Shown here one piece after another: positions 31,354 through 58,139 of a stretch of DNA of 64,000 bases. The position numbers and the translations under genes are program-made. This DNA comes from Paludibacteraceae bacterium (GTDB lineage Bacteria > Bacteroidota > Bacteroidia > Bacteroidales > Paludibacteraceae), in NCBI GenBank assembly GCA_024405855.1, contig JAKSNZ010000001.1, positions 1 through 64,000 on the forward strand, given 5' to 3'. The notes beneath the pieces were generated by a model. That model saw only the letters and a list, made by a program, of their open reading frames with translations, was not told the origin of the DNA and searched no databases. Position 1 is the stretch's first letter, and the number at the start of each line of letters is the position of its first letter.

Positions 31354-31395
31354 ATGACAAGACATAGAAGCCGAAAACGGCTTATATATAATTAG
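31354..31395 (+). CDS. Arg-rich leader ORF, copy 1 (MTRHRSRKRLIYN)
   Basis: A 13-codon ORF near the predicted 5' end of the cassette transcript. It recurs at 58092-58139 as MTRHRSRKRLTYKGW and at 55516-55518 onward as MLKHRSRKRPIYN. Between copies 1 and 2 the codons cga/cgg and ctt/ctc change silently, which favours translation. The segment also forms a small hairpin, AGCCG AAAA CGGCT. Five of 13 residues are Arg. It may be a regulatory leader peptide; no product has been shown. Confidence 0.5.
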   Translation: MTRHRSRKRLIYN

Positions 31396-31401
31396 GTGGT
31401 A

Positions 31402-31438
31402 AAATTACCCTCCTCGAGTGTATCGGGGGGGGTAATTT
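31402..31438 (+). promoter_or_regulatory. Leader hairpin, copy 1
   Basis: AAATTACCCTCC pairs with GGGGGGTAATTT around a short loop, 7 nt after the leader ORF stop. The equivalent hairpin is in cassette 2 at 58056-58091 with a different loop. No clean U-run follows, so it may be an attenuator, a pause site or a structural leader element. Confidence 0.6.
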
Positions 31439-31468
31439 GTTTATTATCAGCGAGTTATAATGTTTTTG

Positions 31469-31659
31469 TATTAAATTTAGTAAGTTATGACGTTCACAAA
31501 TTGCTCGCTGTTAACCCCTTCAAAACCACAGTTTTGTTCGGAGACTCACTAATGCGGAACTGACAAGTCAGTTCCCAGTTCGTGCCTCCAAAACTATGTG
31601 GTTTTGTGCGGCGGCTCGCAGTGTTCACTCTATAACTTACTAAATTTAACCGATTAACC
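31469..31659 (+). repeat. 191-bp palindromic element, copy 1 (identical inverted copy at 57837-58027)
   Basis: Within it, 31471-31488 (TTAAATTTAGTAAGTTAT) and 31632-31649 are perfect 18-bp terminal inverted repeats. The middle is the palindrome GGAACTGACAAGTCAGTTCC (31556-31575), and CAAAACCACA at 31521-31530 pairs with TGTGGTTTTG at 31597-31606. All 191 bases are identical to the reverse complement of 57837-58027, while the flanking leader and peptide genes differ. There is no coding potential and no transposase nearby. It could be a MITE-like element or a structured RNA element in the 5' leader. Confidence 0.9.
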
Positions 31660-54620: not shown

Positions 54621-55478
54621 TTAATCCTTTAGGCAACGCACAGTCCGACCGACATTCTTAGCAATGTAACCACTATCCAAAATGTCAGTATTATAAAAGA
54701 GGTTGCGACAGTAAGCGTTATAATCATCGTCATTAAATGGAGTAGCTGTCCAAAAAGTGATATAGTTACCAACGTAACTGACTACACAACCCATTGAACT
54801 GCCCGCAGGCAGAGCCGCAAAACCATAGGTGTCAAGCCCAAGTTTATAGATGTCATCACCATTATACCAACCTGATGTTGTCTTTAGATGCTTGCCTGCA
54901 GTACGTTTGCCTTTCTCATCTGTCTTTTCAATATAATCATTTAGAGTCTGCCATTCAGCATCTGTTGGTATATGCCATCCGTTAGGGCATATACCCTGTC
55001 TGCTGCCTGTGAAGGCAGTTGTTTGTTGCTGACCGTCAGCAACACCAACCGCCGCCGCCCAATTATATAGGTATCCTAATTGGGCAACCTGTTCATCAGT
55101 AAGGTTATCTCCATATTGTTGACTATATTGATCCCATTTACTCCTTTCTGAGGCATCGGTATAGTATGGGGTATTCACAAAATTTTCTGATGTTGTTAGA
55201 ATAGTGTATCTGCCCTCCTTGTATGCCTCTGACTGAGTGTCATACTTACTACAGCGGTAGTTCTCAGCCATCCATACCTGTGTACCAATGGTCACCTGCG
55301 GGTAGTCTGATGCCTTGCACTTCTCTTTTAATGACGGCTTGGTAAAACTGATACTGTCAACTTCTGATATAATGTACTCAATTTGTGTGCCATTATTGTT
55401 ATACACCCAAAACTTTGTCTGTGCCACCACCATAATTGGCAATAGCAGAAACATTGTAAAGCAAGTCAGTTTTCTCAT
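54621..55478 (-). CDS. Exported FISUMP-domain protein
   Basis: The protein has 285 aa with signal peptide (IMVVAQ). After a short N-terminal segment (FWVYNNNGTQIEYIISEVDS), a complete FISUMP domain fills residues about 55-285: VTIGTQVWMAENYRC, LGYLYNWAAAVG, ICPNGWHIPTDAEWQTLN, AGKHLKTTSGWY, GFAALPAGSS, FWTATP and GRTVRCLKD. The domain has a C-type-lectin-like fold in related families; its function here is unknown. Its start codon is overlapped by an Arg-rich upstream ORF homologous to the leaders of the two accessory cassettes. Confidence 0.9.
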   Translation of the reverse strand: MRKLTCFTMFLLLPIMVVAQTKFWVYNNNGTQIEYIISEVDSISFTKPSLKEKCKASDYPQVTIGTQVWMAENYRCSKYDTQSEAYKEGRYTILTTSENFVNTPYYTDASERSKWDQYSQQYGDNLTDEQVAQLGYLYNWAAAVGVADGQQQTTAFTGSRQGICPNGWHIPTDAEWQTLNDYIEKTDEKGKRTAGKHLKTTSGWYNGDDIYKLGLDTYGFAALPAGSSMGCVVSYVGNYITFWTATPFNDDDYNAYCRNLFYNTDILDSGYIAKNVGRTVRCLKD

Positions 55479-55518
55479 AATTATATATAGGTCGTTTCCG
55501 GCTTCTGTGTTTTAACAT
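55399..55518 (-). CDS. Arg-rich leader ORF, copy 3, overlapping the FISUMP gene start
   Basis: From ATG 55518 it reads MLKHRSRKRPIYNYEKTDLL and continues out of frame across the FISUMP start (55478) to TAA at 55399-55401, 39 codons. The first 13 residues match the leader ORFs of cassettes 1 and 2 (MTRHRSRKRLIYN), and the DNA is alignable from the ATG onward. Here there is no hairpin or palindromic element between leader and gene. Translation is plausible but unproven. Confidence 0.4.
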   Translation of the reverse strand: MLKHRSRKRPIYNYEKTDLLYNVSAIANYGGGTDKVLGV

Positions 55519-57836: not shown

Positions 57837-58027
57837 GGTTAATCGGTTAAATTTAGTAAGTTATAGAGTGAACACTGCGAGCCGCCGCACAAAACCACAT
57901 AGTTTTGGAGGCACGAACTGGGAACTGACTTGTCAGTTCCGCATTAGTGAGTCTCCGAACAAAACTGTGGTTTTGAAGGGGTTAACAGCGAGCAATTTGT
58001 GAACGTCATAACTTACTAAATTTAATA
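57837..58027 (-). repeat. 191-bp palindromic element, copy 2
   Basis: The reverse complement is identical at all 191 positions to 31469-31659. It has the same 18-bp terminal inverted repeats and central palindrome. It lies in the presumed 5' leader of cassette 2. Confidence 0.9.
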
Positions 58028-58055: not shown

Positions 58056-58091
58056 AAATTACCCCCCCCGTTTGCACGGGGAGGGTAATTT
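58056..58091 (-). promoter_or_regulatory. Leader hairpin, copy 2
   Basis: Minus-strand AAATTACCCTCCCCG, loop, CGGGGGGGGTAATTT. The stem is conserved with 31402-31438 but loop and length differ, which suggests that pairing is maintained. It begins right after the leader ORF stop. Confidence 0.6.
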
Positions 58092-58139
58092 CTACCAACC
58101 TTTATATGTGAGCCGTTTCCGGCTTCTATGTCTTGTCAT
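58092..58139 (-). CDS. Arg-rich leader ORF, copy 2 (MTRHRSRKRLTYKGW)
   Basis: 15 codons, starting 4 nt after the stop of the MFS gene, so here the cassette seems to be the tail of the MFS transcript or to use a promoter inside that gene. The first ten residues are identical to copy 1 with silent codon changes. The internal hairpin AGCCG GAAA CGGCT is kept. Confidence 0.5.
   Translation of the reverse strand: MTRHRSRKRLTYKGW

Follow-up and report, generated by a model that had tools for sequence, protein, structure and literature searches.

A dispersed hairpin repeat found in one genus of Paludibacteraceae, with copy-specific arms that are probably maintained at the DNA level

How can two copies of a 191-bp sequence be identical when their surroundings have diverged? 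The question arises in a window of 64,000 nucleotides from the 1.76-Mb, 70-contig draft genome of a member of a Paludibacteraceae genus (G000). The window contains two cassettes, in each of which a copy of the element has a conserved leader on one side, a short peptide ORF on the other, and genes for fimbrillin-like lipoproteins beyond (Table 1). A first-pass annotation had described the copies as inverted and identical at every base within diverged flanks, and direct comparison confirms this. The two are exact reverse complements over 191 of 191 bp, and the identity stops sharply on both sides, with 0 further matching bases. The aligned leader-side flank is 70-84% identical per 50 columns, the right flank 52-64%, and the downstream genes about 35-55%. 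By simple arithmetic the chance of 191 identical bases at the flanks' identity of ~83% is ~0.83^191, or <1e-15, so the identity is not a matter of chance.

The perfect 18-bp terminal inverted repeats of the same annotation are present in both copies, with 100% complementary arms. The identical block extends beyond the arms, by 2 bp on the left and 10 bp on the right. The central palindrome, reported as 20 bp, is really a pair of 9-bp arms, GGAACTGAC and GTCAGTTCC, around a 2-nt centre AA, and is not perfect over 20 bp. Other full copies with the window type of core in the same genome have a shorter apical form, GGAACTTCGTTCC. The core motifs of the window subfamily follow the order CCCTTCAAAAC... 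CGGAGACTCAC ... TTCGTGCCTCC ... TTTTGTGCGG, inside an AT-rich outer stem. Both strands fold much more stably than shuffled controls, with z = -6.95 and -7.04 for the RNA of the two strands and z = -6.40 as DNA.

Table 1. Positions of the repeat copies and cassette features in the window
Feature	Position	Strand	Basis or remark
Cassette 1 leader, containing a GC-rich hairpin; outside the repeat, itself multi-copy	31354..31440	+	sequence search
Hairpin repeat copy 1, with the cassette 1 leader on one side and the short peptide ORF on the other	31469..31659	+	identity to copy 2; covariance model R2, 155.6 bits
Left outer arm of copy 1, TTAAATTTAGTAAGTTAT, 'A-type'	31471..31488	+	100% complementary to 31632-31649
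Core, GCTCGC...GGCTCGCAG	31502..31620	+	common to the G000:C56 and G000:C23 copies with unrelated arms, except for a 7-nt longer apical loop
Apical hairpin, GGAACTGAC-AA-GTCAGTTCC	31556..31575	+	sequence comparison
Right outer arm of copy 1	31632..31649	+	pairs with 31471-31488
Short peptide ORF of cassette 1, MKKNYSAPHLEQVKMEAEMPVMIGS..., 42 aa	31696..31824	+	sequence; start common to other cassettes, end different
Short peptide ORF of cassette 2, MKNNYSAPKMEQVSMEAEMPVMIGS..., 45 aa	57634..57771	-	sequence
Hairpin repeat copy 2, equivalent place in cassette 2	57837..58027	-	identity to copy 1; covariance model R2
Right outer arm of copy 2	57847..57864	-	18-bp perfect arm
Left outer arm of copy 2	58008..58025	-	18-bp perfect arm
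Leader of cassette 2	58060..58139	-	sequence search

The element is not restricted to these two sites. DNA searches gave nine matches in the window's own genome, representing 7-9 places, some of them truncated or with internal deletions; in G010 they gave three. Covariance models (from 7 copies, then 15) extended the family to distant copies in G002, G003, G010 and G012. Its members are ~160-190 bp long and non-coding, with nested hairpins and no conserved ORF, and each genome holds several subfamilies. Among 150 Paludibacteraceae genomes of 33 genera, copies occur in five, all of one genus (G000, G002, G003, G010 and G012), and the other family members sampled have none. Viral contigs gave no match to the core pattern. 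GTDB records the relatives with copies as Paludibacteraceae MAGs from horse faeces. All examined copies are intergenic, about half sense and half antisense to their neighbours, and they lie between unrelated genes (lplA-lpd, nrnA-apgM, ygiQ-like, argG, trkA-smpB and others, named by eye from translations). Conversely, most related cassettes (e.g. L036, L037, L039, L045 and L047) have different repeats in the equivalent spacer and lack this one. The repeat is therefore neither confined to the cassette nor required by it. Copies away from the cassette genes, which the first-pass annotation had said would count against its reading, occur in its own genome and in four other species. Two copies in G002 (L053 and L070) have further palindromic insertions inside the core, and a copy in G003 (C1:58448-58621, L071) sits beside topB at a breakpoint of gene order relative to the window.

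Comparison of the copies separates the question of how symmetry is kept from that of how the repeat spreads: within one genome the cores are made alike, whereas the arms are copy-specific and nevertheless mirror images. Identical or near-identical cores are found on unrelated arms in three genomes (L002 versus L003 and L004 in G000, L009 versus L011 in G010, and L072 versus L073 in G003), and the L002 core has a 7-nt loop insertion relative to the others. L009 and L010 have a common inner arm and different outermost arms, each self-complementary. Between species, divergence of a given core is about 20-60%, so it is not strongly constrained. Local identity inside diverged duplicates recurs elsewhere. 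In G003, tandem RhuM-type units with a patchwork profile match at 82% along 1.57 kb, and their repeat is 100% identical; the G002 cassettes L042 and L053 have the repeat's arms in common, a second case of this kind. Homogenisation within a genome is well supported by these comparisons. Core sharing and local identity, together with the leader relationships given below, would be better explained by within-genome recombination or gene conversion than by constraint. Gene conversion had been one of the options offered at the outset, and for homogenisation within a genome it is the best of them. The RhuM locus itself (L085, G003:C18, 893-4048) consists of tandem ORF6N/RhuM genes with blocks of 50-70% and 90-100% identity, the repeat upstream of each gene, and an adjoining methylase-like gene.

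The outer stems are very different between copies, yet within each they are perfectly or almost perfectly self-complementary. In 25 aligned copies all 10 outer pairs have two-sided changes and 96.8% of cells are paired, and the covariation score of 0.592 across the alignment is reached by 0 of 500 shuffles. Covariation of this strength alone is no proof of an RNA; it was the near-lack of one-sided (G-U) changes that pointed to an origin at the DNA level. The outer helix has 116 two-sided versus 1 one-sided changes and 0.4% G-U, and helix 5 has 72 versus 1. RNase P RNA of the same genus has 169 versus 78 and 10.7% G-U, ratios that rest on its predicted consensus structure. The outer helix differs from it with Fisher values of 2.6e-14 for the change ratio and 1e-9 for G-U. 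The comparison uses structure-fitted alignments, and such fitting cannot create an absence of G-U. Because the G-U intermediates expected under RNA selection are nearly absent from the two main stems, the inverted repeats are probably kept at the DNA level. That the palindrome would be maintained in this way rather than by RNA selection is well supported by the counts. The remaining pairs have 54 two-sided versus 26 one-sided changes, and one-sided changes are thus as frequent there as in a real RNA, so a transcribed core might have some role. A host function, such as an mRNA hairpin between genes, is possible and is unnecessary to explain the data.

Some sites are occupied in more than one species. 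Three loci are each occupied in two, namely lplA-lpd (G000 and G003), the ygiQ-like gene (G000 and G002) and an HTH gene (G010 and G003), versus about 0.26 expected (P about 0.002, a rough estimate). Instead of inserting at random, the repeat may prefer certain sites, or the shared copies may have been inherited vertically. At lpd and ygiQ-like the orientation is opposite between the species. G002 has just an arm remnant at lpd, next to another hairpin. The lplA-lpd gap (L076-L081) holds an inverted repeat or remnant in all six genus members compared, with several unrelated sequences among them. A probable loss can also be discerned. G010 has a full copy at L068, and the orthologous site of G002 has near-identical flanks and one arm, with no core or second arm, and short direct repeats GTGTGA/TGACAG at the junction. 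This would fit slippage deletion across the hairpin, on our reading of the direction of change. We also considered the arm as native target sequence and rejected this, as the same arms occur at other loci; a deletion remnant is therefore the better reading.

Inverted copies could in principle allow inversion of the 26 kb between them, as had been proposed. We found no evidence for this, since purA and its left-hand neighbours are in the same order in G002 and G003. In G003 the genes from purA to topB are collinear beside the same left-hand neighbours as in the window; in G002 the left-hand genes and purA keep the window order and collinearity ends after purA. The comparison rests on the left junction, right-side synteny not having been recovered.

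MITE-like mobility was another of the proposals. The dispersal just described is consistent with it, but the signs of classical transposition are lacking. No target-site duplication was detected at the repeat copies, the mean adjacent direct repeat being 0.56 bp versus 0.49 bp in shuffles, and the arms are unrelated between many copies even where the cores are identical, so that no terminal repeat is common to them. Nor was an empty/filled pair with a target-site duplication found, and transposition is therefore itself something that we only infer. No long, ORF-bearing version emerged from DNA and model searches with the whole element, although the ends are too variable for a good search, and no mobilising enzyme or autonomous partner was found. 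The Y1 transposase (PF01797) was not found in the draft genomes of the five carriers, and mobilisation by Y1/RAYT was dropped on that account. Support is thus lacking for classical MITE transposition and for RAYT mobilisation alike.

SbcCD is a palindrome-cleaving nuclease. SbcD was above the cut-off in none of the five carriers, whose drafts are 78-96% complete, an absence common to most non-carriers. On this evidence carriers should tolerate long hairpins, and the idea that breakage by SbcCD drives conversion was dropped. Two of 16 genomes of the genus have SbcD above the cut-off, both non-carriers, which is too few for an association.

We consider it probable that the 191 bp are a member of a genus-specific, non-coding hairpin repeat family of MITE/ERIC-like type, with arms maintained at the DNA level and copies homogenised within each genome. 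The arms would stay complementary through hairpin template switching (quasi-palindrome correction) during replication. Copies within a genome would be homogenised by recombination or gene conversion, as would the cassettes, themselves rich in repeats, in which two of the copies lie, and it is proposed that this is why the window copies are identical despite their diverged surroundings. The hairpins would persist because SbcCD appears to be missing, and occasional enzyme-driven mobilisation would take the repeat to new sites. Homogenisation and DNA-level symmetry are well supported; the enzymology we infer. A further suggestion is more tentative. Core and arms might be separable modules, with a mobile core that enters or is exchanged between existing AT-rich palindromes such as gene-end hairpins, or with locus-specific arms built from the flanks by replication fold-back. 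The terminal repeats of such an element would be made on site and not be recognised by a transposase. An exact-pattern search of 16 genomes gave no core-free A-type palindrome that might be an empty target, so that insertion into an already existing palindrome stays unproven.

Other explanations have to be weighed against this one. An ordinary IS-mobilised MITE, inserted recently into both cassettes by a transposase acting in trans, would account for the size, inverted ends, AT-rich arms, intergenic position and several subfamilies. We nevertheless consider it unlikely, given the missing target-site duplications and the terminal repeats that differ even around identical cores. Moreover, both window copies are at the equivalent point of homologous cassettes, which makes two independent insertions unlikely. 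Selection on a structured RNA, whether a cis-acting 5'-UTR element or an RNA with a functional core and a merely pairing outer stem, had also been put forward. The covariation, the conserved apical motif and the transcribed-sense position in both window cassettes are as it would predict, yet the outer stem is nearly devoid of G-U or one-sided changes, orientation is mixed and flips between species at two loci, most cassettes have no repeat, and no Rfam family matches at gathering score. This explanation therefore loses support, and we judge it quite improbable. A low-threshold Rfam scan gave weak matches only, mostly on the leader, and a known Rfam RNA as the identity of the repeat was rejected.

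The equivalent position in both cassettes might instead reflect a simple recent duplication of cassette plus repeat, after which the flanks diverged fast and the repeat stayed unchanged by chance or constraint. This is very improbable, because leader 1 is nearest to that of a third cassette without the repeat, two other duplicated units have the same local identity, and the core is not strongly constrained. Collapse of two diverged copies during assembly is conceivable in a 70-contig draft, but the two copies have unique flanks and lie within a single 127-kb contig, and on other contigs there are near-identical cores, each enclosed by arms of its own; we give this practically no weight.

In known quasi-palindromes, held perfect by replication template switching, both arms change together without G-U intermediates. 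As far as sequence alone can tell, the arms of the hairpin repeat do likewise. The architecture also resembles that of ERIC/IRU, Correia/NEMIS and RUP, which are non-coding, mainly intergenic elements of ~100-200 bp with terminal inverted repeats and long stem-loop transcripts (PMC2229807). The hairpin repeat is similarly an intergenic imperfect palindrome in the 100-200 bp range with a long stem-loop. However, in ERIC, Correia and RUP the terminal repeats are common to the whole family and target-site duplications are mostly present (PMC2229807), whereas here the arms are copy-specific and no target duplication was detected. IS-derived prokaryotic MITEs are 50-500 bp long, lack a transposase and have inverted ends, subfamilies and truncated copies (PMC10969869). 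Our repeat is likewise short (160-190 bp), non-coding and without transposase, and has subfamilies and truncated copies, but it has no IS partner that we could find and its terminal repeats are not common to the copies. REP/BIME/REPIN sequences with RAYT (TnpA-REP) are extragenic palindromes spread in the genome, and REPs are 20-40 bp (PMC3733652, PMC3116915, PMC8266576); the hairpin repeat, at 160-190 bp, is far longer than such GTAG/CGTC-tagged palindromes, and no Y1 transposase was found in any carrier. The kind of element is thus already known (ERIC, Correia and MITE-like; PMC2229807, PMC10969869), while copy-specific perfect arms on a shared core without target duplications are unusual, and a narrow literature search found no description of such arms around a shared core. 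Many bacteria have small palindromic repeats, yet little is understood of what preserves their symmetry or of how they spread when no enzyme is known. The family offers natural tests for template switching and for how well long palindromes are tolerated by cells that lack SbcCD.

The cassettes around the window copies have a history of their own. Ferredoxin and purA, which flank cassette 1, adjoin directly in G002 and G003, which suggests that cassette 1 was inserted. Leader 1 has 97% identity with a repeat-free leader on contig C50 and 83% with leader 2; judged from this, parts of the cassettes are evidently shuffled. The leader has the pattern AGACATAGAAGCCG....CGGCTT followed by AATTACCCTCCCC...GGGGGGGTAATTTGCTTA and is a multi-copy element (L032-L060), matched 7 times in the window's own genome, 17 times in G002, 4 times in G003 and once in G010, lying upstream of cassettes and of other surface-protein genes. 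Its best Rfam match, sRNA41, is sub-threshold (33.5 of 45 bits). The short peptides of the cassettes (the window pair and L036, L037, L042, L047 and L049) share the conserved start MKKxYSAPxxEQVxMEAEMPVMxxS but differ greatly at the end, where W is often the last residue. They have no Pfam match and could be a family of precursor peptides. A leader-like stretch without the GC-rich hairpin, AGAAGCCGGAAACG, lies on the minus strand of the window at 55478-55515, ahead of a Fib_succ_major gene at 54621-55478.
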